Assembly (NCBI GenBank): GCA_947165805.1 | Contig: CAMVBT010000056.1 | Coordinates: 1-11,084, forward strand | Length of the DNA stretch: 11,084 nt | Reading direction: 5' to 3' | Source: an uncultured Clostridia bacterium | Lineage (GTDB): Bacteria > Bacillota > Clostridia > Oscillospirales > Ruminococcaceae | In this document: one piece after another, positions 1 through 11,084 of the stretch | How the letters are laid out: every line of letters begins with the position of its first letter | Numbering within the stretch: the stretch's first letter is position 1 | Notes under the pieces: generated by a model | The model's database searches: none | Told to the model about the DNA's origin: nothing | The model's input: only the letters and a program-made list of their open reading frames with translations | Program-made: the position numbers and the translations under genes

Positions 1-599
1 AGCTTCCCGGACCGCTGAAAACGGTGTTCACGTTCGTTTTCTACGCCCCGCCGCTTGCCGGTAACATCTTCACTACATGGCAGCTCATCTTCTCGGGCGA
101 TACCTACGGCATAGCGAACGCTTACTTACTCAACCTCGGCATAACAAAGGGCGCGATACAGTGGCTCACGGACGCAAACTACATCATGGGCGTCCTGATA
201 GTCGTACAGCTGTGGATGGCGCTGGGCGCAGGCTTCCTCGCGATAAGAGCGGGTCTCCAGGGTATCCCGAGAGACCGCTATGAGGCGGGCGCTATCGAGG
301 GAATAAAGAACAGAGGTCAGGAGCTGATCTATGTAACTATCCCCGCAATGGGACCGCAGCTGATGTTCGCGGCGGTAATGCAGATCACATCTTCCTTCAC
401 CGCGGGCGATATCGGACGCTCCCTCACCGCCTTCCCGACCACCGACTACGCGGGCCATACGATAATGACCCACGCCTTCGACTACGGTTCGATCAGATAC
501 GAAATGGGCTATTCGTCGGCAATATGCTTTGTCCTGTTCGCAACGATGCTCATAGCGAACTGGGCGATCAAGAAACTGCTCGGCAAGTATCTCGATTAA
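1..599 (+). CDS. CUT1-family sugar ABC transporter permease, MalF type (5'-truncated by window edge)
   Basis: This is an inner-membrane subunit of a carbohydrate importer. The reading frame is open from the first complete codon at position 3 (reading LPGPLKTVFTFVFY), so the N-terminal third or more lies outside the window; the in-frame GTG at 24 is not a credible start. The diagnostic feature is the cytoplasmic EAA loop at about 279-350 (EAGAIEGIKNRGQ, then TIPAMGP), which in this family docks on the ATPase. The loop departs slightly from consensus, with EAG for EAA and EG for DG. Hydrophobic segments lie on both sides, and the protein ends in a helix followed by a short basic tail (KKLLGKYLD). 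The next gene, 67 bases downstream, is a MalG-type permease, the usual heterodimer partner. The substrate cannot be read from the sequence. Family assignment is secure; the MalF rather than MalG designation rests on gene order and loop sequence. Confidence 0.9.
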   Translation, partial: LPGPLKTVFTFVFYAPPLAGNIFTTWQLIFSGDTYGIANAYLLNLGITKGAIQWLTDANYIMGVLIVVQLWMALGAGFLAIRAGLQGIPRDRYEAGAIEGIKNRGQELIYVTIPAMGPQLMFAAVMQITSSFTAGDIGRSLTAFPTTDYAGHTIMTHAFDYGSIRYEMGYSSAICFVLFATMLIANWAIKKLLGKYLD

Positions 600-614
600 G
601 GAAAATTTCTCCCC

Positions 615-634
615 CTCCCCGTAAAAACGGGGAG
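615..634 (+). other. Intergenic stem-loop between two permease genes
   Basis: A perfect inverted repeat, CTCCCCGT / ACGGGGAG, forms an 8-bp stem with an AAAA loop. It lies 15 bases after the first permease's stop and 32 bases before the next start. No U-run follows, so it is unlikely to be a strong intrinsic terminator. It could be an mRNA-stability or processing element setting relative expression of the two permeases. Only the structure is visible; the function is inferred. Confidence 0.6.
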
Positions 635-666
635 CCGGGCATGATAAATTTGAAAGGACGGTAGTC

Positions 667-1527
667 ATGAGGGCAAAAAAATCCAGAAAGAAATATGGCG
701 GAAGCCGCGGCGGCGACATAGCCATTTTTATACTGTTGTTACTGCTTGGACTGTTCATGCTTTTCCCGATATATCTGTCGGTGATACAGTCCCTGAAACC
801 TTCGGAGGAGTTGTTCCTGTTCCCTCCGAAACTCTACGCGATGTCACCCACGAACCAGAACTATGTTGACCTCATCAACACGGCATCAAATATGTGGGTG
901 CCTTTCAGCCGATACATATTCAACTCCCTGTTCGTTGCGATAGTTGTTACCGTGGCACAGCTTCTCTTCTCCTCCTCCGCGGCCTACGCGCTTGCAAAGG
1001 TGCAGTTCCCCGGAAGAAAGATGCTCAACAAGATCATCGAGATCACGCTTCTGTTCACAAGTACCGTACTGTACATCATGCAGTACATCGTAATGGCGAC
1101 AATAGGCATCATCGATACCTACCTCGCGATCACGCTCCCGTACATCGCTACATCGATGGGTCTGTTCCTTATGAGACAGTTCATAGGACAGCTCCCTGAC
1201 GCGCTGATAGAGGCAGCTTATCTCGACGGCGCAGGACAGGTAAGGATCTGTTGGCAGATAGTAATGCCGAACGTAAAGCCCGCGTGGCTGACGCTTATGA
1301 TCTTCGCCTTCAACGGCGCATGGCAGATCAACGGTTACTCCTTCATCTATAACGAAGCATTAAAACCTATCCCTACGGTGCTTCAGCAGATAAGCGCCTC
1401 CGGTATAGCCCGAGCGGGCGTCGCGGCGGCAGCTACGGTCGTGCTGATGATACCGCCCATGGTGATATTCCTGCTGTGCCAGAGCTCGGTCGTTGAGACC
1501 ATGGCACAGAGCGGACTCAAGGATTAA
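667..1527 (+). CDS. CUT1-family sugar ABC transporter permease, MalG type
   Basis: This 286-residue inner-membrane permease has the normal length for the family and is the likely partner of the truncated permease just upstream. A short basic N-terminus (about 17 residues) leads into the first membrane helix at about 18-39. Further hydrophobic segments follow, and the EAA loop at about 182-206 is close to consensus: EAAYLDGAG starting at E182, then IVMPNVKP. This loop is the contact site for the ATP-hydrolysing subunit. The ATG at 667 has AAAGGA at 653-658, eight bases upstream. The start codon of the next gene lies 26 bases after the stop, so co-transcription is likely. No ATPase gene accompanies it. 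Many Firmicute CUT1 importers share one MsmX/MsmK-type ATPase, and that is the likely explanation here. Substrate unknown. Confidence 0.93.
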   Translation: MRAKKSRKKYGGSRGGDIAIFILLLLLGLFMLFPIYLSVIQSLKPSEELFLFPPKLYAMSPTNQNYVDLINTASNMWVPFSRYIFNSLFVAIVVTVAQLLFSSSAAYALAKVQFPGRKMLNKIIEITLLFTSTVLYIMQYIVMATIGIIDTYLAITLPYIATSMGLFLMRQFIGQLPDALIEAAYLDGAGQVRICWQIVMPNVKPAWLTLMIFAFNGAWQINGYSFIYNEALKPIPTVLQQISASGIARAGVAAAATVVLMIPPMVIFLLCQSSVVETMAQSGLKD

Positions 1528-1535
1528 AAATTTAC

Positions 1536-1544
1536 AGGAAAGGA
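1536..1544 (+). promoter_or_regulatory. Ribosome binding site that fixes the start of the NHL/TPR gene
   Basis: AGGAAAGGA ends nine bases before the ATG at 1554. An in-frame TTG at 1545 would sit directly against this site with no spacing, so 1554 is the better start. From 1554 the protein also begins with a clean signal peptide. Confidence 0.75.
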
Positions 1545-1553
1545 TTGATTTTA

Positions 1554-3137
1554 ATGCCGTTTATGAAAAAGCTCGCGGCAGCGTTCCTGACGGCTGCCAT
1601 AGCTGCAAGCGCCCTTGTGGTCACGGCATCGGCCGATGAGCCTTACACCGGTTACAACTACGACTGGTGGGGCGACCCGATACCTTCACAGAACGGATTC
1701 GTTGTCGATAAGGTCATCGACGGCAGCGACCTCGGGCTCGACAAGCTGGATTACAGCTCGTACAGCAGCACGCTTCAGGCTCAGATGCAGAGTCTTGCCG
1801 AGCCTTCCGATATATTCGTCTACCAGAAGACCGGCGAGTTCTATATAGTTGACAGTAAAAATAACAGACTGATCGTTACCGACAGCACGTTCTCACCCGA
1901 AAAGACAAGAGTGATAACCGAGCTGCACTACGGGAGCGAGTTCCCCGAAAGCCAGAGCGTCGTCAAGAACGTCAACTTCAAGACGCCCCGCGGCGTATAT
2001 GTCAGGGCGAACAACGACGGTATCAAGTTCATCTTCGTTGCCGACTACGATAACAACCGCGTGGTCATGTTCAACGAGGACGACGAGATACTCATGGAAT
2101 ACACCCGCCCCTCCGGAGATGTGTATGACGCGAATGTAACGTACAACCCCAATAAGGTCATCGTGGACAGCGCGTTCAACGTTTATGTCATAGTTCCTTC
2201 GATCACCCAGGGTGCCGTGCAGTTCTCCGCAGACGGAACGTTCAACGGATACTACGGCGCGAACCGTGTCGAAGCGACCGCCGAGGTAATAGCGCAGCAG
2301 TTCTGGAAGCTCATCTACACCAGAGAGCAGATCATAGCGATGCGCCGCTCGGTAGCTATCGAGATATCCAACATCGATATAGACAACGACGGCTTCATCT
2401 ACACCGTTACCGAGAACAAGTCGGCAAACACCGACGTTCTCAAGAAGCTCAACCCCGCGGGTACGAACATCTTCGTCAACCTCGGCTACGATGAGGTGAC
2501 CTTCGGCGATTTTGCCTCGAGATACTACAAGGGCAAGAATTACGCCTCCGCGATAACCGATGTCGATATCGACGAACAGGGCAACATCTACCTGCTCGAC
2601 TTCGCAACCGGAAGAGTCTTCCAGTACACCGACGAGTGCGACCTGCTCTTCATCTTCGGAACAAAGGGTCCTCAGCAGACTCAGGGTACCCAGAAGGGCA
2701 CGTTCATGTCGGTCTCCGCGCTGGAGACCTACAAAGGCAAGGTCTACGTCGTTGACTCGCGTAAGAACAGCATAACGGTGTTCAAGCAGACTGAGTTCGG
2801 CGGCATAGTGCAGAACGCCATATCGCTCTTCAATGAGGGTCTCTACGATGAGGCAAAGGGTCCGTGGGAGGAAGTCCTCCGCCGTGACGCCAACTACTGG
2901 CTCGCTTACATAGGACTCGGAAACGCCTACCTGAACCAGAACGATTACTCGACAGCGATGAACTACTTCTACCGCACATCGCGCGCGGGCTACAACAGAG
3001 CGTTCAAGTCCTACCGAATAGAGTTCATCAGGGCGAACTTCAACTGGATACTCATAGTCATACTCGTCATAGTTGCTCTGCTGATAGCATGGAGCATCGT
3101 CAAGAAAAAAGTGCTGAACAAAGGAGGGAATAAATAA
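1554..3137 (+). CDS. Secreted, membrane-anchored NHL-repeat beta-propeller protein with TPR and C-terminal transmembrane anchor
   Basis: The 527-residue protein starts with a signal peptide (MPFMKKLAAAF through TASA, likely cut before DEPYTG). Six repeats of NHL/propeller type follow, at roughly residues 82, 143, 196, 271, 333 and 383. Each has the pattern of a hydrophobic strand, a D/N-G turn and a second strand, for example IDIDNDGFIYTV and VDIDEQGNIYLLD, consistent with a six-bladed propeller. Residues about 417-480 look like two TPR helices pairs (ISLFNEGLYDEAKGPWEEV, then YIGLGNAYLNQNDYSTAMNYF). A single membrane helix at about 495-518 ends in a basic tail (KKKVLNKGGNK). The topology puts propeller and TPR outside the cell, tethered to the membrane. 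NHL propellers usually bind proteins, peptides or glycans; no catalytic residues can be assigned. The position between permease pairs suggests a surface receptor or scaffold for the importer, which is inference. The stop codon abuts the next ATG. Confidence 0.8.
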   Translation: MPFMKKLAAAFLTAAIAASALVVTASADEPYTGYNYDWWGDPIPSQNGFVVDKVIDGSDLGLDKLDYSSYSSTLQAQMQSLAEPSDIFVYQKTGEFYIVDSKNNRLIVTDSTFSPEKTRVITELHYGSEFPESQSVVKNVNFKTPRGVYVRANNDGIKFIFVADYDNNRVVMFNEDDEILMEYTRPSGDVYDANVTYNPNKVIVDSAFNVYVIVPSITQGAVQFSADGTFNGYYGANRVEATAEVIAQQFWKLIYTREQIIAMRRSVAIEISNIDIDNDGFIYTVTENKSANTDVLKKLNPAGTNIFVNLGYDEVTFGDFASRYYKGKNYASAITDVDIDEQGNIYLLDFATGRVFQYTDECDLLFIFGTKGPQQTQGTQKGTFMSVSALETYKGKVYVVDSRKNSITVFKQTEFGGIVQNAISLFNEGLYDEAKGPWEEVLRRDANYWLAYIGLGNAYLNQNDYSTAMNYFYRTSRAGYNRAFKSYRIEFIRANFNWILIVILVIVALLIAWSIVKKKVLNKGGNK

Positions 3138-3776
3138 ATGAGATTTGATTTAGACCTTCCTGCATGGAAATGGCCCTTCTACGTTATGAGACATCCCTTT
3201 GAGGGATATGACGACCTCAGGTGGAAGAAAGGCTACAATATGAAGGTCGCGTGGGTGATCGTCGCCGCGTTCTTCATAGTAAGCGTTGCGAGCGCACAGC
3301 TCACGGGCTTCCTGTTCAACAACACATACGTTAAGGTATTCAACATCATACCTTACTTCTCGTCCTCGGTACTGCTGTTCCTTACATGGGTGGTCGGAAA
3401 CTGGTCACTGTGTACGCTGTTCGACGGCGAGGGTACGATGAAGAACATCTTCTGCGTATCCGCTTACGCGCTTCTCCCCTACCTCTTCTCCGAGGTCATA
3501 GTGATAATCGCGAGTAACTTCCTTCTCCGCACGGAGGGCGGATTTATAACCTTCTTCCGCTATCTCGGCATCGTGTGGTCGGTAGTGCTTATGATCTCCG
3601 CAATGAAAACGGTCCATCAGTATTCGATACCGAAGACCCTCGCGGCTATGTTCTTCACAGTGGTCGCAATGGCAATAATCCTGTTCCTTGCGGTCCTTCT
3701 GCTGACACTGTTCCAGCAGGTATTCGTATTCGTATACTCGATCTATACCGAGCTTATGTACCGCTTCAGTATTTAG
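3138..3776 (+). CDS. YIP1-family integral membrane protein
   Basis: This 212-residue protein has five predicted membrane segments at about 36-57, 70-94, 103-128, 136-156 and 167-200. The charged N-terminus carries an aromatic-rich motif (WPFYVMRHPFEGYDDLRWKK), and the central GEGTMKNIFCVSAYALLPYL resembles the conserved core of bacterial YIP1 domains (G-x-G-T-h-x-x-h-x-x-x-x-Y-A-L-h-P). Bacterial YIP1 proteins have no firmly established role. The ATG at 3138 follows directly on the TAA of the NHL/TPR gene, with AAGGAGGG at 3121-3128 inside that gene's end, so translation is probably coupled. Constant linkage to a propeller protein and DUF5696 within an ABC-permease operon suggests a membrane accessory to the uptake system, for example in assembly or in coupling envelope proteins. 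That role is inference. Confidence 0.8.
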   Translation: MRFDLDLPAWKWPFYVMRHPFEGYDDLRWKKGYNMKVAWVIVAAFFIVSVASAQLTGFLFNNTYVKVFNIIPYFSSSVLLFLTWVVGNWSLCTLFDGEGTMKNIFCVSAYALLPYLFSEVIVIIASNFLLRTEGGFITFFRYLGIVWSVVLMISAMKTVHQYSIPKTLAAMFFTVVAMAIILFLAVLLLTLFQQVFVFVYSIYTELMYRFSI

Positions 3777-3813
3777 CGGCGCTCAGAGTTTCATAACCAA
3801 AACAATTTACACA

Positions 3814-3829
3814 GTCTCCCTGCGGAGAC
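3814..3829 (+). other. Small stem-loop just upstream of the DUF5696 ribosome site
   Basis: GTCTCC / GGAGAC pair perfectly around a CTGC loop (6-bp stem). The stem ends four bases before the GGAGGT ribosome site at 3834-3839, which itself lies six bases before the ATG at 3846. A hairpin this close could limit or time ribosome access to the largest gene of the operon. There is no U-run and no recognisable promoter in the 69-base gap. Confidence 0.5.
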
Positions 3830-3845
3830 CATTGGAGGTCATAAA

Positions 3846-6182
3846 ATGCTGAAAATAAGGAAAAAGCTGATGGCGGCCGGTCTTGCCGCTCTGATAGCGA
3901 CTTCCGCGGCGGCAGTGCCGGTATGGTCGGAGGCCGGGGAAGCGGCAGACGCTTCCGCCGAAGCAGCCGATGCCTCCTCCGCTGAACCTGTCGTGGAGGA
4001 CGACGGCGTATACGTTACCGAGGAAGAGGCGCTTTCCGGTATGGAGGTGTACGCCAGCAACTCAAAGCTGAACCTGTATGTCAACAAGAAGGACTGCACG
4101 TTCATGATAGAGGATAAGGCTAACGGTAAGAAGTGGTGGTCGAGCTACTATAACACCGATTCTTCCAACAAGACCAGATTAAGCAAGCGCAGCACCATTC
4201 TTTCGGTCGATGTCGTGGCGACCGAGAGCAAGACGATAGAAACTTCCGTCCGCGCGTATGAAAAGAACGTAAAGAAAAAGGCCGAGAAGATCGACGGCGG
4301 CGTAAAGTTCACCTTCAGCTACGACAAGTACAGTATCGATGTACCGCTGGAGATCCGCATCAACGAGGACGGCACCTTCACGGCGACCGTTCCGACCGAT
4401 GAGATCGCCGAGAACAATCCCGAGACAGATGCCAACAACAATACCGGCTATCAGCTGATAAATGTGCACGTTCTCGAGAATATGGGAGCCGCGGCTCACA
4501 AAGACGACGGAATGATGATAGTTGCGGACGGCTCCGGCGCGGTCATCAACTACAACAACGGCACCACCTCGGGTGACAACAACACCTACGAGTCGAAGGT
4601 CTACGGCACCGACCTCGCAGTCGGAAAGCTCTTCGCCGGCGCGCTGATCGAGCAGATCACAATGCCCGTCATGGCAACGATCAACAAGACCGAAAACGCC
4701 GGACTTGTCATGATAGCCACTCAGGGCGAGCCCTACGCGATAGAGCACGCGATGGTGACCGGACAGAACGTTACAGACCTGAACTCCTGCTGGTTCGAGT
4801 TTGCGCTCCGTACTACGGATAAGTACTTCATGGGCAACACCAACGATCCGCTTACCGTTTATGAGGCAAACGGCATCAAGACCGGAGATGTGTCGGTCAC
4901 ATACTACCCGGTATACGGAGACAGCCTCAGTTACATCGACGCGGTCAATGTCTACAGAGATTACCTCATAAACAAGATCGGCGTGACAAAGAAGACGACA
5001 GCGAACAGCGCTCCGTATTACCTGACACTCTACGGCGGAACTGTAAAGACACAGTCCGTTATGGGCTTCCCCGTTGATATCCAGACAGCGGCTACCACAT
5101 ACAAGGAAGCGCTCAGTATCATACAGGATCTTGAAGCAGAGGGTGTCAATGATCTCAAGATCATCTATGAGGACTTCAATGAGGCAGGCATCGTCGGACA
5201 GATAGCGGCGAACTTCCAGTATTCCTCGCTGCTGGGCGGAAAGGGCGACTACACGGAATTCAAGAATTATGCCATACTGATGAAGAACTATGAAGTGTTC
5301 CCGAGCTGTGACATAATGGAATTCTACAAGTCGGGCAACGGCTATTCGTTCACCCTCAACTCGTCGAAGCAGATCACAAAGGCATACGCGACACAGACTC
5401 CGTTCGAGCTGGCGTTCGGTCTGCCGCATCTGACAAAGGCAACATGGACGATACTTTCGCCTTACTACTTCACAGATATCTTCACCAAGCTCCGCAAGAG
5501 CTTTACCGATGAGGGCGCTACGGGTATCTCGCTCAATCAGGCGTCTTACATGCTGTACAGCGATTTCAGCCGCGAGAACAGCGACAAGAGACCGTATATC
5601 GTAAGACAGGATACCATAAATATCCTGAAGGACGGCTACCAGCAGCTGAAAGACGGCGGACTGAAAATAATGACCGAGAACGCGAACCAGTATCTGATCC
5701 CGTATGCGGATTATATCAAGGACGTTCCGCTCTACTCCTCGAACTACGATATATTCGACTACGATATCCCGTTCGCGGAAATGGTGCTCCACGGTCTTGT
5801 ACCGTACACCACAAAGGCTATCAACAAGAACGCCGACGCGGAGGAGCTGAGAATGCTCGCGCTCCTGACGGGTACGCCGATACACTATGAGCTTATGTAC
5901 GAAAACCCGAACAAGTTCGCGGACAGTGAGTACGACGTTCTCTACTATACCAACTATCAGGGCTGGCTCGAGCGCTCGGTAAAGGAATACAAGCTGTTCG
6001 ATGAGATCGTCAAGGCCGTTTCCGACGCGACGATCACGGACTTCGAGCACATCAACGATCATGAGATGCAGTCCACATTCAGCAACGGCGACATGATCTA
6101 TGTCAACCTTGAAACAGGCGAGATCAGATACAACGGTACTTCCTACAGTGCCGAATCCTACGGATTGGGGGTCAATGAATAA
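3846..6182 (+). CDS. Secreted DUF5696 protein, probable glycoside-hydrolase-like barrel
   Basis: The 778-residue protein opens with a signal peptide (MLKIRKKLMAAGLAALIATS), then an Ala/Ser/Asp/Glu-rich linker to about residue 50. Residues about 65-380 are strand-rich (for example LNLYVNKKDCTFMIEDKANG), fitting a beta-sandwich. Residues about 395-700 alternate helices and strands like a TIM barrel: DLKIIYEDFNEAG near 436-448, ISLNQASYMLYSDF ending near D573, and IMTENANQYLIPYADYI near 608. The blocks DVPLYSS, IPFAEMVLHG and YNGTSYSAESYGLGV at the end are features I recognise from DUF5696 proteins of Paenibacillus and Clostridia. A C-terminal strand domain (NGDMIYVNLETGEIRYNG) completes it. No membrane anchor or LPXTG is visible. 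The layout resembles glycosidases with an N-terminal sandwich and a barrel, so an extracellular glycan-active role is plausible, with E442, D443, E446, D573 and E611 as unproven candidate acidic residues. The start has a good GGAGGT site, and the stop overlaps the next gene by one base. Confidence 0.8.
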   Translation: MLKIRKKLMAAGLAALIATSAAAVPVWSEAGEAADASAEAADASSAEPVVEDDGVYVTEEEALSGMEVYASNSKLNLYVNKKDCTFMIEDKANGKKWWSSYYNTDSSNKTRLSKRSTILSVDVVATESKTIETSVRAYEKNVKKKAEKIDGGVKFTFSYDKYSIDVPLEIRINEDGTFTATVPTDEIAENNPETDANNNTGYQLINVHVLENMGAAAHKDDGMMIVADGSGAVINYNNGTTSGDNNTYESKVYGTDLAVGKLFAGALIEQITMPVMATINKTENAGLVMIATQGEPYAIEHAMVTGQNVTDLNSCWFEFALRTTDKYFMGNTNDPLTVYEANGIKTGDVSVTYYPVYGDSLSYIDAVNVYRDYLINKIGVTKKTTANSAPYYLTLYGGTVKTQSVMGFPVDIQTAATTYKEALSIIQDLEAEGVNDLKIIYEDFNEAGIVGQIAANFQYSSLLGGKGDYTEFKNYAILMKNYEVFPSCDIMEFYKSGNGYSFTLNSSKQITKAYATQTPFELAFGLPHLTKATWTILSPYYFTDIFTKLRKSFTDEGATGISLNQASYMLYSDFSRENSDKRPYIVRQDTINILKDGYQQLKDGGLKIMTENANQYLIPYADYIKDVPLYSSNYDIFDYDIPFAEMVLHGLVPYTTKAINKNADAEELRMLALLTGTPIHYELMYENPNKFADSEYDVLYYTNYQGWLERSVKEYKLFDEIVKAVSDATITDFEHINDHEMQSTFSNGDMIYVNLETGEIRYNGTSYSAESYGLGVNE

Positions 6183-7324
6183 TGAGTGATTTTGAACAGA
6201 ACACAAATGAAGAGATCACCGAGTCCGTAACGGAAACAGCCGAAGCAGCGGAAACAGCAGCTGAGGAAGTGACGGAAGCACCCAAGAAGAAGAAAGCGGC
6301 GGCTCACATGACGGCATCAGCGGCGGCTCTCAATGCCGACGGCGAGGTCGATATCAGAAGAATGAAGCCCCGCGAGGTAAAGCAGATCAAGGAATCGAAG
6401 ATTTCCTACGAAAAGAAGAAGGGCCTGTACGGCTACGGCTTCATAGCCCTGTGGTTCGTCGGAGTGCTGTATATGTTCATCATTCCGATGGCACAGTCGC
6501 TGTGGTACGCGATGTGCAAGACCGAGCTCGTAAACGACGCCGCGAAACAGCTCGAATACGGCATGAGCGGCCCGGGTATCTACACGACATGGAACGACTT
6601 CGGCAACTTCTCGTGGGCGTTCACCGTCAACCCGGACTACCCGAAGAACCTCGCGACTTCCCTCGGCGAGACCGCGTACAGAGTACCGCTTATCCTCGTA
6701 TTCTCGCTGTTCGTGGCTCTGCTGCTCAACGATAAGTTCAAGGGCAGAACCCTGGCGCGAGCGATATTCTTCCTGCCGGTACTGATAGCGACGGGCCCGG
6801 TGCTCGGAGTTATCAACGGCGATATGCTCTCACAAGGCGTCTCGGACGCGTCCCAGTTCAGCGCGCTGTTCAAAACGAACTTCGTTGAGGACTTCCTGCA
6901 GTTCATGGGACTGAACAACATAAGCCAACAGCTCGCGGACGCGGTCTCCGAGGTCACGAGCTCGATACTCAACCTGATATGGGATTCGGGTATACAAGTC
7001 CTGATATTCATTTCCGCACTCCAGCAGATACCTACCTCCGCGAAGGAGGCGGCGTCCATGGAAGGCGCGACGGGCTGGGAATTCTTCTGGAAGATAACCT
7101 TCCCGACAATTTCCCCTATGATCTTCGTAAACCTCATCTATACGATCATAGACGCGTTCGTCAAGTCGGATAACCCGGTAATGAAACAGGTAATGTCCTA
7201 CATAAAGGTGTGGGAGTACGACCACGCTTCGGCAATGGCATGGGCATACTTCGCGATAGTAGGCGTGATACTCGCGCTGATATCGGTGATAGTTTCCAGA
7301 TTCATATTCTATCAGGTAGATTAA
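6182..7324 (+). CDS. CUT1-family sugar ABC transporter permease, MalF/LplB type, with long N-terminal extension
   Basis: This 380-residue membrane permease is the MalF-type member of the second pair. The first helix begins only near residue 84. Before it lies an 80-residue, presumably cytoplasmic, extension: acidic and Ala/Thr/Glu-rich to about 33, then a KKKK cluster, then a basic stretch ending ISYEKKK. The transporter core shows the expected helices, a large loop with GPGIYTTWNDFGNFSWAF, and an EAA loop near 289-312 (EAASMEGATGWEFFWKITFP, followed by TISP). As in the first MalF-type permease, EG replaces the usual DG of this loop. The start overlaps the DUF5696 stop as TAATG, with only a weak GGGGG-type ribosome site at 6167-6171, so expression probably depends on coupling to DUF5696 translation. 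The MalG-type partner begins 12 bases downstream. Confidence 0.92.
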   Translation: MSDFEQNTNEEITESVTETAEAAETAAEEVTEAPKKKKAAAHMTASAAALNADGEVDIRRMKPREVKQIKESKISYEKKKGLYGYGFIALWFVGVLYMFIIPMAQSLWYAMCKTELVNDAAKQLEYGMSGPGIYTTWNDFGNFSWAFTVNPDYPKNLATSLGETAYRVPLILVFSLFVALLLNDKFKGRTLARAIFFLPVLIATGPVLGVINGDMLSQGVSDASQFSALFKTNFVEDFLQFMGLNNISQQLADAVSEVTSSILNLIWDSGIQVLIFISALQQIPTSAKEAASMEGATGWEFFWKITFPTISPMIFVNLIYTIIDAFVKSDNPVMKQVMSYIKVWEYDHASAMAWAYFAIVGVILALISVIVSRFIFYQVD

Positions 7325-7336
7325 GGAGGTACTTCA

Positions 7337-8446
7337 ATGGACAACGAAAATACAGCAGTTGTACAGGGAACCACCTCCGTACCTGCCGGAATGAAATCAA
7401 AGAAAGAGCTCAGGAAAGAAGAAAAAGAGCGAATGAAAAAGTTCCATGTCTCGACATGGCACATCATCACCAATTACCGCAATTATAAGCCCGAGGAAAA
7501 GAAGCATTACCGCTACATACTCGGAAGGCGCGCGTCGTCGATAGTATGGCCGATATTCAGATTTCTGATACTCTTCGGCCTCGCGTTCGTCGTTATCTAC
7601 CCGATACTCTATATGATATCCTGCGCGCTGAGACCTCAGATGGAGATGTCCGACCCGTCGATCATGTGGATACCCAAGACACTGACGTTCGGGAACCTTG
7701 AGGAAACATGGATAGCTATAGACTATCCGAAGCTGGTATGGGACACCGTAACGGTAAACGTGGTCTGCTCGATAATACAGGTTCTTACCTGCTCTATCGC
7801 AGGCTACGGCTTCGCGAGATTCAAGTTCAAGGGCAAGAGCATATTCTTCGCTATCGTTATACTCCAGATCATCGTACCGACCCAGGTAATCCTTATACCG
7901 CAGTTCATGCAGTTCAGATACTTTGACCCGTTCCACATCTGCACTCTTCTGACGGGTGCGCCTGTGAACCTTGCGGACTCTCCGTGGGCTTTGTATCTGC
8001 AGGCATTCTTCTGCAACGGTATCCGTGCGGGTCTGTTCATCTTCCTGTTCAGACAGTTCTTCCGCGGACTGCCGAAGGAGCTGGAGGACGCCGCTTATCT
8101 GGACGGCTGCGGCCCGTTCGAGACATTTGTGAGGATCATGGTACCGAACGCGTCCAACTCGTTCCTGACGGTATTCATCTTCTCCGTTGTATGGTACTGG
8201 AACGACTCTTACGTTTCGGGAATGTTCTTCTCGAAGTCGAACACCGTAGCGCTTATGGTAAGCAACCTGTATCAGACCATTTCGGCATACTACAGCCCGA
8301 CGAGCACGCCTACCGGCGTACCTGCCGACTGGCTGGTATGGATCGAGTCCGGATGCTTACTCTCTATCCTTCCCATTCTCGTTATGTACATCTTCTTACA
8401 GAAGAACTTCGTTGAAGGTGTCGAGCGTTCCGGTATCGTTGGCTAG
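7337..8446 (+). CDS. CUT1-family sugar ABC transporter permease, MalG type, with charged N-terminal extension
   Basis: This 369-residue permease is the last gene of the operon and the likely partner of the permease 12 bases upstream. An excellent AAGGAGGT site at 7323-7330 lies six bases before its ATG and overlaps the previous stop codon. Residues 1 to about 68 form a strongly charged, mostly basic extension (including KSKKELRKEEKERMKKF) ahead of the first helix at about 70-95; most MalG-type proteins, including the one at 667-1527, have a far shorter tail. The EAA loop is canonical near 250-273: EDAAYLDGCGPFETF, then IMVPNASN. The protein ends in a hydrophobic segment and FVEGVERSGIVG, a typical MalG-like C-terminus. 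It supplies half of the membrane channel of a carbohydrate importer; the substrate is unknown and no ATPase is adjacent. Confidence 0.93.
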   Translation: MDNENTAVVQGTTSVPAGMKSKKELRKEEKERMKKFHVSTWHIITNYRNYKPEEKKHYRYILGRRASSIVWPIFRFLILFGLAFVVIYPILYMISCALRPQMEMSDPSIMWIPKTLTFGNLEETWIAIDYPKLVWDTVTVNVVCSIIQVLTCSIAGYGFARFKFKGKSIFFAIVILQIIVPTQVILIPQFMQFRYFDPFHICTLLTGAPVNLADSPWALYLQAFFCNGIRAGLFIFLFRQFFRGLPKELEDAAYLDGCGPFETFVRIMVPNASNSFLTVFIFSVVWYWNDSYVSGMFFSKSNTVALMVSNLYQTISAYYSPTSTPTGVPADWLVWIESGCLLSILPILVMYIFLQKNFVEGVERSGIVG

Positions 8447-8531: not shown

Positions 8532-8567
8532 AAATAACTGCTCCTGACGACAGGGGCAGTTATTTTT
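8532..8567 (+). terminator. Rho-independent terminator, probably bidirectional, between convergent operons
   Basis: The 5' arm AAATAACTGCTCCTG (8532-8546) pairs with CAGGGGCAGTTATTT (8551-8565) over 15 positions, one being a G-U wobble, around an ACGA loop. T runs from 8563 to 8567 on the plus strand. On the minus strand the same stem is followed by TTATTTG and further T-rich sequence, so it can also stop transcripts of the opposing TPM operon. It is the expected end of the plus-strand sugar-transport operon. Confidence 0.9.
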
Positions 8568-8701: not shown

Positions 8702-9541
8702 CTATCTATGATGCCCGCCGCCGCCGTGACGACCGCCGCCGGAGGAATGGTGGGTGGAGGAGTGGTGGGAATGTCCGCCGGAGTGGCTGCCGGAGCTGCC
8801 GCTGCTGCGCGGCGAGTAGGTACGGGTGGTGATATTGCCCATGAACTGGTCGGTCTTCTGGGAGAACCAGAGGGAATCCTTCAATGTATAATTCTGTGTT
8901 TCGGGCTTGGTGATCGCGTACTGCTTTGAGAAATGCGCGTAGAGGCAGATCGAGACGATAAGCGCACCGAAGCCGAGGAACAGGAACGTGGAGAAGAACT
9001 CCTCCGCGAAATAGTCAAGGTCTACTTCCTTGCCGAACACTTCCTGCTGATTGTTGGCCTTGCCCTGCGCGCAGTAGGACACGACCTTTTCGATAAAGCA
9101 GAGAGACGCGCCGTAGAGGTCGTCCTTATCGTAGTATTTGTCCATGGCGCTGAATATGGTCTCGATGCGGTAGTCGCTCAGGTAGTTTATTCCCGCGCCG
9201 CTGGTGGATATCCAGTCGAATTTCGTGTCGTTGTTTATCAGCAGCAGAACGCCGTCGGTGTTGATGCCGCAGATAGATTCGTAGGCTACGTCCGCGAAGT
9301 CCATGACGCCGTTGTCGGATTTATCGGAGCCCACGTCATCGGTGGTGTACACTATTATGTTGAGCCCAGTCTTTTCCGCTGCCTCGACGGCTTTGTCGGT
9401 CATGTAGTTTTCCTGTGTTTTTGTGAAAATATCCGCTCCGTCGACAACAAGTCCCGTTTTTCCGTCGGCAATGACGGGTACACACATAACACAGAGGGCT
9501 GTTATGACCGCGGACACGAAAGATATCAGTCTCTTCATCAT
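8702..9541 (-). CDS. TPM-domain membrane protein with His/Ser/Gly-rich tail (YdjH-like)
   Basis: This 279-residue protein has a signal peptide (residues 1-25, cut after VIA), an extracytoplasmic TPM domain at about 31-160 (VVDGADIFTKTQENYM; TGLNIIVYTTDDV; GVLLLINNDTKFDWISTSGAG), one membrane helix at about 183-204, and a cytoplasmic tail. The last 37 residues are almost only Ser, Gly and His, with nine histidines. TPM (YgcG/TPM_phosphatase) proteins commonly end in Gly-rich tails. The ATG at 9541 overlaps the upstream TGA as ATGATG, with GGAGG at 9552-9548 spaced six bases; the second ATG (9538) is equally possible. A longer frame reaching 9721 is rejected because it would hide the signal peptide and overlap the upstream gene. 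With the zinc-ribbon gene upstream it matches the YdjG-YdjH pair of B. subtilis, which positions the SPFH protein YdjI and PspA at the membrane. The functional match is inferred from architecture. Confidence 0.85.
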   Translation of the reverse strand: MMKRLISFVSAVITALCVMCVPVIADGKTGLVVDGADIFTKTQENYMTDKAVEAAEKTGLNIIVYTTDDVGSDKSDNGVMDFADVAYESICGINTDGVLLLINNDTKFDWISTSGAGINYLSDYRIETIFSAMDKYYDKDDLYGASLCFIEKVVSYCAQGKANNQQEVFGKEVDLDYFAEEFFSTFLFLGFGALIVSICLYAHFSKQYAITKPETQNYTLKDSLWFSQKTDQFMGNITTRTYSPRSSGSSGSHSGGHSHHSSTHHSSGGGRHGGGGHHR

Positions 9542-10626
9542 ACCATACCTCCGAAAAAGCCCATGAACAGCGATGCCAGAAGTACGATAACAAACGGTAT
9601 GCCGAAGCACATCAGCGCCAGCTTTGGCTTGTTCACTGGCAGACTGCCGCCGAATTTGCCGGTCTGAGCGTTCATTGCGAAGTAGTACATCTTGTCCTTG
9701 TACTTGTAGGACAGGAACCACAGGGGCAGCATGACGTGCTCCCAGTTTATGTTGTTGATATGCAGAGTCTTGCCGGATATGTCCACCCTGCTGTAGCCTT
9801 TGACAGTGCCGAGAAAGGCCTTTTCCGTCGCCTCGAGGACGCGGCTGTTTATGCGGGGATAGACCATATCCTGCGACACATCGTATCTCTGTGCGCTGTG
9901 TCCCGACAGATATGACAGATCGAAGTCCACCAATTCGGTGTAGTCGAAAGGCTCGATGCTGTCCATGAGCGCGTCGTCGGCGCTGGTCGAGCCGTCAGCC
10001 GGCACGCCCTGATATATGACGCTGCCCTCACGCGTGACGAAATACTTGGCCTGCGTGGTGATTATGTAGTCGCCCTTGCGGATCGAGCTGACGGTATTGA
10101 AGCAGTTCGCGGTGATCCTGCCCTCGACACAGCAGTCCGCCAGCCAGAACGGGATATAGATGCCCTGCATCTTCTCGAGAGTCTCATCGCTGCCGAAGCC
10201 CTTCGCCATGAAGAACTTCTTCTTGCTCGTCCATGCTTTGAACTGCCCGAGAGCGTCTTCGCGCGTCTTTTTGAACGGTATTATCTTGTCGGGGCGGTAT
10301 TCTCCGGCAAGCCTGCCCGAAAGCACCACGGCGCTGTGGCAGTAGGCACATTCCGCGGATGCCGAAAGCTCGGAGTCCGTGATTATCGCGGCTCCGCAGC
10401 CCGGGCAGAGGTAAAGGCGGTTGTCCTCGCCGAATTTCTTCTGCTTCTCGTAAAGCTCGGCCTCCTCGGGCGAGATCGTTTCGGTGTGACCCTCGAGAGG
10501 CTTGTCGAGCGTTTCTTTCGTGAAATGCGAGCCGCAGTAGGCGCAGCCGAAATCCTGCGATTCGGTGGTGTACGTCAGCGGAGCGCCGCAGGACGGACAC
10601 TGATAGGCGACGATGCCGTTGTCCAT
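9538..10626 (-). CDS. Double TFIIB-type zinc-ribbon protein with C-terminal membrane helix (YdjG-like)
   Basis: The 362-residue protein begins with two zinc ribbons: C10/C13 with C28/C31 (QCPSCGAPL and CAYCGSHF) and C74/C77 with C93/C96 (LCPGCGAAI and CAYCHSAV). A charged helix (EEAELYEKQKKFGED) joins them. A long middle region of strands follows, including IYIPFWLADCCVEGRI and MLPLWFLSYKYKDKMYYFAMN, the pattern seen in bacterial proteins annotated as TFIIB-type zinc ribbon. One hydrophobic helix at about 335-358 anchors the C-terminus. Despite the name, such proteins are membrane-bound and not transcription factors. B. subtilis YdjG has the same design and acts with YdjH (TPM) in the PspA stress module. 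The ATG at 10626 has GGAGG at 10637-10633. The downstream TPM gene overlaps by four bases, and the gene upstream ends 13 bases away, so three genes form one operon. Confidence 0.85.
   Translation of the reverse strand: MDNGIVAYQCPSCGAPLTYTTESQDFGCAYCGSHFTKETLDKPLEGHTETISPEEAELYEKQKKFGEDNRLYLCPGCGAAIITDSELSASAECAYCHSAVVLSGRLAGEYRPDKIIPFKKTREDALGQFKAWTSKKKFFMAKGFGSDETLEKMQGIYIPFWLADCCVEGRITANCFNTVSSIRKGDYIITTQAKYFVTREGSVIYQGVPADGSTSADDALMDSIEPFDYTELVDFDLSYLSGHSAQRYDVSQDMVYPRINSRVLEATEKAFLGTVKGYSRVDISGKTLHINNINWEHVMLPLWFLSYKYKDKMYYFAMNAQTGKFGGSLPVNKPKLALMCFGIPFVIVLLASLFMGFFGGMV
9548..9552 (-). promoter_or_regulatory. Ribosome binding site deciding the TPM gene start
   Basis: GGAGG on the minus strand lies inside the end of the zinc-ribbon gene, six bases before the ATG at 9541. 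It supports the short, signal-peptide-bearing start and translational coupling through the ATGA overlap. Confidence 0.8.
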
Positions 10627-10639
10627 TTGTTACCTCCCG

Positions 10640-11084
10640 TCAGTCAATGATGTTGCGTTTGGTTATCTCCTTGTAGAAGCTGAAATCGACCTTCTTGAGC
10701 ATATCTATGATAGCGGTCTCTATCTCTATCTCGAGCCCGAGGCTCTTGATGCGGCGTTCGACGGTCCCTTCATGCTGCTCGGCCTTCGGGCGCTTTGTGG
10801 CGCGGTAGGGTCTGTACATGACGCCGGACTCGACATCGAACACGGCTGTCATGGTATCCGCGGTGCCGTCGATTATGCCGGCAAGCCCCGCGGGCAGCAT
10901 ACCGAAAATGTCGGTGAACAGCAGGCTCGCGACGCAGATAGCCTTGATGATGTCCGCCTTTATCACGGCGCGGCGGCTTATGTGCAGGTCTATGAGATAC
11001 TGCTCCATCGAGGTGTAGTAATAACCGCGTCCGAAAGAGAGCGTCAGCATGGCCGCGCCCGCCTCGGAGACAGTGACCGCGTCA
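10640..11084 (-). CDS. Unrecognised protein, C-terminal part only (runs off window edge)
   Basis: The frame is open from the right-hand window edge (first full codon at 11083, reading DAVTVSEAGAAM) to a TGA at 10642-10640, giving about 147 residues of C-terminus. The ATG at 11050 is internal and has no convincing ribosome site, so the true start is beyond 11084. Visible features are an aromatic glycine segment (FGRGYYYTSMEQYLIDL), an amphipathic-to-hydrophobic stretch (IIKAICVASLLFTDIFGMLP), and a charged C-terminus with a helix ending KKVDFSFYKEITKRNIID. I do not recognise the family. It is not the usual SPFH protein of the YdjFGHI group as far as this segment shows. The 13-base gap to the zinc-ribbon gene makes it a probable member of the same envelope operon. 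Confidence 0.7.
   Translation of the reverse strand, partial: DAVTVSEAGAAMLTLSFGRGYYYTSMEQYLIDLHISRRAVIKADIIKAICVASLLFTDIFGMLPAGLAGIIDGTADTMTAVFDVESGVMYRPYRATKRPKAEQHEGTVERRIKSLGLEIEIETAIIDMLKKVDFSFYKEITKRNIID

Follow-up and report, generated by a model that had tools for sequence, protein, structure and literature searches.

The stretch of DNA analysed here, referred to as the window, is the whole 11084-base contig CAMVBT010000056.1 (C56) from the draft genome of an uncultured Clostridia bacterium of the Ruminococcaceae (GCA_947165805.1; 354 contigs, 80% complete). Seven plus-strand genes span positions 3–8446 and encode, in order, the permeases F1 and G1, an NHL-TPR protein, a YIP1 protein, a DUF5696 protein, and the permeases F2 and G2. 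We propose, with moderate confidence, that this run is the 3' part of a bipartite glycan capture-and-import cassette, in which two CUT1 importers surround a membrane scaffold and a pseudo-glycosidase receptor. The features of the run are as follows.

3..599, + strand: F1, MalF-type permease, 5' part missing (PF00528, 32.9 bits; EAA loop EAGAIEGIKNRGQELIYVTIPAMGP)
667..1527, + strand: G1, MalG/UgpE-type permease, probable partner of F1 (UgpE model, 111 bits, under its cut-off of 297)
1545..3137, + strand: NHL propeller and TPR protein (Pfam; hydrophobic-segment scan)
3138..3776, + strand: YIP1-domain integral membrane protein (Pfam, 57.6 bits; hydrophobic-segment scan)
3846..6182, + strand: DUF5696 protein with a GH129/GH101-type fold, probably secreted (Pfam, fold, alignment, N-terminal hydrophobic segment)
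6182..7324, + strand: F2, MalF-type permease with an N-terminal extension of ~85 residues, probable partner of G2 (Pfam, coevolution, hydrophobic-segment scan)
7337..8446, + strand: G2, MalG-type permease with an N-terminal extension of ~75 residues (Pfam, coevolution, hydrophobic-segment scan)
8532..8565, + strand: terminator-like hairpin of 15 pairs just 3' of G2 (consensus scan only)

All seven proteins passed their Pfam cut-offs (PF00528 for the four permeases; NHL, Yip1 and DUF5696 for the others), while the TPR match of the NHL protein fell under its own (22.9 versus 32.7 bits). With that one qualification, the gene order and families given in an initial annotation of this DNA, which placed NHL/TPR, YIP1 and DUF5696 genes between two permease pairs in a tight run, were confirmed; the gaps between the seven co-directional genes, calculated from coordinates, are -1 to 69 bases. 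By consensus scan, the hairpin at 8532–8565 is the longest plus-strand terminator-like stem of the window and probably marks the end of the operon; two further terminator-like stems of 8 pairs each lie inside G2. Consensus matching found no promoter-like site on the plus strand of the window, all three sites being on the minus strand.

The permeases are paired MalF- and MalG-type proteins, as in CUT1 importers, with the subtype taken from the best NCBIfam models, all of which scored beneath their equivalog cut-offs. Both pairs are real, but the first is not complete as had been claimed, since the contig end cuts F1 to 198 aa versus ~311 in same-genus relatives. For the same reason the N-terminus of F1 cannot be judged in the window, and the proposal that only the second pair carries long N-terminal extensions holds as far as F2 and G2 are concerned, with ~85 and ~75 residues, respectively, ahead of the first hydrophobic segment. 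Truncated F1 gave no significant BLASTP match to F2 (E 0.5) and G1 and G2 are 23% identical, which agrees with the earlier view that the pairs are diverged and rules out a recent duplication. The EAA loops are intact, with EG in F1 and F2 and DG in G1 and G2. This pattern had been noted before and holds in the window, but EG is not a family rule: among sequences scoring at least 200 and 270–480 aa long, the residue is E in 57% and D in 43% of the F1 family (173 sequences), E in 80% and D in 20% of the F2 family (187), and D in 99% of the G1 and G2 families (173 and 165). The Gly is kept in 99–100% of each family (165–187 sequences).

The initial annotation saw no solute-binding protein (SBP) or ATPase, which is true of the window but not of the genome. 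On contig C84, from the same genome, the sequence breaks off within an SBP of ~1000 residues, the first 659 of which are encoded (profile positions 9–653 of 977 matched). The layout of C84 is recR, dnaX and patatin genes on the opposite strand, followed by genes for 239-aa and 311-aa LolD-type ATPases and then the SBP. In a relative (locus L073), two ATPase genes, the SBP and F1 to G2 are all contiguous; the opposite-strand upstream genes there (199, 583 and 283 aa) resemble those of C84 (199, 525 and 302 aa) in order and size only. Because C84 ends in the SBP after two ATPase genes and L073 is contiguous, the lack of both in the window is read as an assembly effect, and the missing binding protein as a contig-end artefact, with C84 and C56 remaining separate contigs. 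Inspection upstream of F1, which had been suggested as a check, also revealed the SBP in relatives: a gene of >900 codons lies there in 38 of 40 loci from other genomes, chosen for long contigs, and of four such genes scanned with Pfam three matched SBP_bac_1 or SBP_bac_8, the fourth, from a distant family, having no match. Relatives therefore have an extracytoplasmic SBP, and this genome has one that is truncated at a contig end. As the SBP belongs to the cassette, the earlier suggestion that the propeller protein replaces a binding protein was not borne out and that candidate was rejected. The SBP comprises two beta-rich N-terminal regions, a helical stretch and an MBP-like domain. The beta-rich regions are probably CBM35-like, a call made from weak Pfam matches because the SBP domain dominated the fold-match list. 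The N-terminal module also seems to occur outside the cassette; open-frame proteins of ~520–850 aa on four contigs (G044:C12, G064:C54, G016:C11, G053:C6) match this part alone.

PF18952 (DUF5696) was found in 105 of 149 related genomes (103 above cut-off), in 89 of 293 genomes sampled across the class (75 above cut-off) and in 52 of 398 drawn from the phylum (43 above cut-off); in the latter two sets, 4 and 3 candidates were scored per genome, so that copy numbers are lower bounds. Carriers occur outside the class too and include the cultured species Ruminococcus flavefaciens and R. callidus (L097, L115), and a single genome has up to six DUF5696 places (G099). A second DUF5696 match in the window's own genome, on contig C184 (28.4 bits in one scan and 24.5, under the cut-off, in another), was rejected as a cassette; it forms the tail of a protein that carries CBM26 and weakly matches alpha-amylase. 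Loci were fetched via DUF5696 or F1 matches, with duplicates dropped only when identical, and held 208 distinct DUF5696 proteins, 78 of them too close to an edge and 130 assessable. The order SBP-F1-G1-NHL-(YIP1)-DUF5696-F2-G2 was found in 116 of the 130, bearing out the conserved DUF5696-YIP1-permease linkage to which the initial annotation had pointed. Hereafter we refer to SBP-F1-G1 as module A and to NHL/YIP1-DUF5696-F2-G2 as module B. The remaining loci had every gene close by but reordered or with a broken gene call (6), were partial (4) or held module B only (4). Since loci were fetched by these matches, the counts describe carriers and not random genomes. Across the 149 relatives, SBP and DUF5696 occur together in 99 genomes, DUF5696 only in 1, SBP only in 0 and neither in 49; in the sole DUF5696-only genome (G103), the gene lies on a contig of 8.3 kb whose start falls within YIP1. 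These counts exclude five weak matches to DUF5696 (E 4.6e-5 to 2.8e-14; G039, G069, G087, G089, G104) and two genomes matching the N-terminal part of the SBP only (G044, G064); the SBP was scored for at most 5 candidates per genome, and G068 was counted on SBP positions 9–361. Tallies of module A versus module B in the f145/f131 genomes were discarded, as scoring there covered 3 DUF5696 candidates per genome.

The modules nevertheless come apart. Module B occurs without module A within 20 kb at L199, L242, L245 and L247, and no SBP match lies on the 98.5-kb contig C7 of genome G490, where L199 is accompanied by another module B. Conversely, L253 has module A without module B in the 8.6 kb read, and the order is permuted at L203, L209 and L254 (F2-G2-SBP-F1-G1 in the last). 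The initial annotation had held that independent occurrence of the pairs would argue against one system; on this point the evidence divides, as the pairs stand apart in a few families while genome co-occurrence (99 versus 1) speaks for a link. In R. flavefaciens 007c (L144), F1-G1 has two ATPase-like genes upstream, and no SBP or module B was recognised in ~20.9 kb.

Coevolution was assessed by correlating distance matrices across 155 loci, every value being corrected for the five other proteins, with YIP1 left out. The values, which carry no significance test correcting for the shared tree, were 0.42 for F1-G1 and 0.32 for F2-G2, compared with 0.15 for F1-F2, 0.09 for G1-G2, 0.05 for F1-G2 and 0.00 for G1-F2. 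The SBP correlated with F1 (0.32) and G1 (0.28), and within module B we found NHL-DUF5696 0.27, DUF5696-F2 0.25 and NHL-G2 0.17. F1 therefore probably pairs with G1, F2 with G2 and the SBP with F1/G1, coevolution being the sole support for the permease pairing.

The NHL protein of the window has an N-terminal hydrophobic, signal-like segment and a C-terminal transmembrane segment at approximately residues 501–519. A YIP1 domain is built into all 37 NHL proteins of >640 aa, none of which is accompanied by a separate YIP1 gene, and into 1 of 145 shorter ones; a YIP1 gene adjoins 138 of the 143 short NHL proteins with inspectable neighbours. Hydrophobic segments are present at the C-terminus of 137 and the N-terminus of 130 of the 145. 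Because they are fused in other taxa, NHL-TPR and YIP1 probably act as a single unit, for which we suggest a scaffold role.

The DUF5696 proteins of the cassette have a GH129 fold. In the window protein, Q565 stands at the GH129 Asp column and E611 at the Glu column, columns that probably correspond to NagBb Asp435 and Glu478, NagBb itself being outside the alignment. Only 6 of 206 DUF5696 proteins from cassettes retain the full D+E pair, and 70 have no acid at either column, whereas the pair is invariant in 13 of 13 GH129-like proteins (nine orphans and four PF11308 members). The cassette DUF5696 is thus a probable pseudo-glycosidase receptor with a non-catalytic role. Stand-alone DUF5696/GH129-like proteins of 561–614 aa (L181–L186, L228, L230) keep the Asp/Glu pair and are probable active glycosidases outside the cassette.

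CUT1 oligosaccharide importers of B. subtilis are reported to be served by the shared ATPase MsmX (PMC7658222; PMC5730181). OB_MalK (MsmX/MalK-type) ATPases gave 4 matches on other contigs of the window's genome and occur in 130 of 149 relatives, and 96 of the 100 genomes that have a strong DUF5696 match carry one (absent from G003, G004, G113 and G122). Such a shared ATPase would usually power both pairs. A LolD-type ATPase lies directly upstream of the SBP in 45 loci, the present genome included; in 126 other cases a different gene adjoins the SBP, and in 11 the SBP lies at an edge. A second LolD-type ATPase lies upstream of the first in 31 of the 31 loci with room; of the other 14, 9 break off at this point and 5 show a truncated piece of it. 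The C84 pair (L240:4950–6623), directly 5' of the SBP, best matches LolD, yet under the cut-off (205.5 and 234.8 versus 307.75 bits). In relatives the second ATPase ends in a MazE/AbrB-like tail of borderline score (24.1 and 25.8 bits against a cut-off of 24.7).

Neighbouring genes vary among carriers. Of 99 co-directional genes 3' of G2, 58 were chosen by size and scanned. Among the 25 of 82 families listed, SBP_bac_1 accounted for 18 genes, a GH95-type protein for 5 and GDPD for 4, with one or two cases each of GH26, GH16, GH2, GH30 and GH36, alongside unrelated genes (MatE and CotH, 1 each; MIP; tRNA synthetase). Upstream of the SBP, scanning 44 of 64 listed genes gave SBP_bac_1 in 8, GH10, GH43, AraC, LacI and FtsX in 2 each, and GH1, GH3 and GH30 in 1 each. 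The split module B at L199 sits with apiosidase-like, GH31 and alpha-L-fucosidase genes. These neighbours suggest glycan-specific versions of one core, with a glycan as the likely substrate. A Ruminococcus albus 7 transcriptomic study reports four putative ATP-binding cassette (ABC) operons up on cellulose (PMC4300822); a tie to the cassette could not be made. A Blautia beta-glucan locus (PMC10318527) is a different system. In the window itself, three minus-strand genes at 8702–11083 are probably unrelated to the cassette; one encodes a TPM-domain protein, the second a zinc-ribbon-like protein with no Pfam match above cut-off, and the third frame gave no match.

We therefore favour a cassette in which module A would consist of the large secreted SBP with F1/G1, and module B of F2/G2 with an NHL propeller/TPR/YIP1 membrane scaffold (a single protein in some taxa but two in this genome) and DUF5696. 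The secreted, GH129-fold DUF5696, its catalytic pair usually lost, would bind and present glycan instead of cutting it. Both pairs would be type I (CUT1) importers, and a shared MsmX/MalK-type ATPase with its gene at another place in the genome would normally energise them; where a second ordinary SBP lies directly 3' of G2 it would probably serve F2/G2. The initial interpretation, which offered two importers for products of one glycan or a single propeller-assisted system, is partly supported, this reading being closer to its two-importer option. Several observations weigh against this reading. Correlations also cross the modules over the 155 loci (SBP-DUF5696 0.27, SBP-G2 0.20), and in the 28 loci with both ATPases G1-G2 (0.44) is similar to F2-G2 (0.42) and F1-G1 (0.39), SBP-NHL reaches 0.55, and DUF5696-F2, NHL-F2 and SBP-F1 are 0.38, 0.37 and 0.37; these values are less clean, so that only the wide set clearly shows the pairing and the A/B division. 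The LolD-type ATPases in 45 loci do not fit a simple MsmX account. The neighbours scanned in the window and on C84 included no carbohydrate enzyme or regulator, so the glycan substrate draws on relatives and the SBP fold. Finally, DUF5696 was aligned to GH129-like proteins at ~15% identity, acids stand at both GH129 columns in 34 of 206, and D228, D256 and D573 are conserved in 195, 183 and 168 of 206.

A more elaborate version of this reading is a Gram-positive capture-and-import machine acting on one polymer. A decayed GH129-type glycosidase, tethered via NHL/TPR/YIP1, would hand long or branched glycans to F2/G2, a CBM-bearing SBP would feed F1/G1, and two dedicated LolD-type ATPases would have been recruited in the window's relatives. 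We regard this version as possible but doubtful.

Equally doubtful is an arrangement of two ordinary CUT1 importers sharing an operon, with NHL/YIP1 as accessories and DUF5696 as an active extracellular exo-alpha-glycosidase using non-GH129 residues. The GH129-like enzyme DagB is active and keeps only one of the two NagBb catalytic residues (PMC5698469), and loss of the GH129 pair is therefore no proof of lost activity. The GH129-like fold, the three conserved Asp residues, the GH genes adjoining some cassettes, the separable halves and the second SBP 3' of G2 in 18 of 58 all accord with this arrangement. It is harder to reconcile with the rarity of the D/E pair, the many proteins with no acid at either column, the near-perfect co-occurrence of the two halves across genomes, and the covariation of NHL, DUF5696 and F2.

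That the cassette maintains the envelope, acting on the cell's own surface polymer instead of importing nutrients, appears unlikely; in the window's genus the LolD-type ATPases would belong to such a system. It would account for the enzyme-free neighbourhood in this genome, the paired LolD-type ATPases wherever there is room, and the GDPD, CotH and MatE genes downstream, but not for the glycan-enzyme neighbours and extra ordinary SBPs in other taxa, nor for the six DUF5696 places of G099, as expected of substrate-specific systems. Slightly less probable still is a single obligate complex of both pairs, SBP, NHL/YIP1 and DUF5696, which the conserved order and spacing, the co-occurring halves and the SBP-DUF5696, SBP-NHL and G1-G2 correlations would suit, but which is at odds with the separated and permuted modules and the lack of F1-G2 and G1-F2 covariation.

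The system is real and widely conserved, and the functions suggested for its added parts are predictions from sequence. No paper naming DUF5696 or describing an NHL/YIP1/permease cassette was found in the literature searched, which excludes most subscription journals. A broader search on YIP1, transporters and polysaccharide utilization listed 20 of 144 papers, and a Yip1 domain is mentioned in none of those 20. If correct, our reading would give a function to four poorly known families (DUF5696, bacterial YIP1, the NHL-TPR protein and the giant SBP) and would show that gut bacteria which degrade fibre have turned a glycosidase fold into a transport receptor. The core is widespread (99 of 149 related genomes, cultured carriers included). 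Module pairing is testable with the proteins of the cultured carriers.

Among known systems, a Gram-positive polysaccharide utilization locus (PUL) is defined by a carbohydrate-active enzyme (CAZyme) and a regulator adjoining a carbohydrate transporter; neither a CAZyme nor a regulator was seen among the genes scanned in the window and on C84. We know of no CUT1 system with the NHL-TPR/YIP1 and DUF5696 set. Several relatives do resemble Gram-positive PULs (PMC5320581) in having a transporter with adjoining CAZymes and regulators, whereas the cassette core is two importers and a scaffold. The C84 ATPases are closest to LolD/MacB-type ATPases but score under the cut-off, and no FtsX-type gene was found among the three scanned upstream genes of C84, to which this check was limited. 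For DUF5696 the closest known proteins are GH129 NagBb (5wzn; PMC8106489) and the GH129-like DagB/ZGAL_3152 (5opq; PMC5698469); the cassette proteins seldom have the Asp/Glu pair of GH129-like proteins, and the window DUF5696 matches PF18952 alone, with no match to the GH129 family profile PF11308 at E ≤ 0.001. Compared with the beta-1,2-gluco-oligosaccharide SBP Lin1841 (5ysb), the cassette SBP adds weakly CBM35-like beta-rich regions and a helical stretch. With CUT1/MsmX importers the cassette shares MalF/MalG-type pairs with EAA loops, an extracytoplasmic SBP and, in most sampled loci beyond the window's relatives, an ATPase away from the SBP; it differs in having two pairs per operon, ~500 additional residues at the N-terminus of the SBP, and the conserved set of NHL-TPR/YIP1 and DUF5696.

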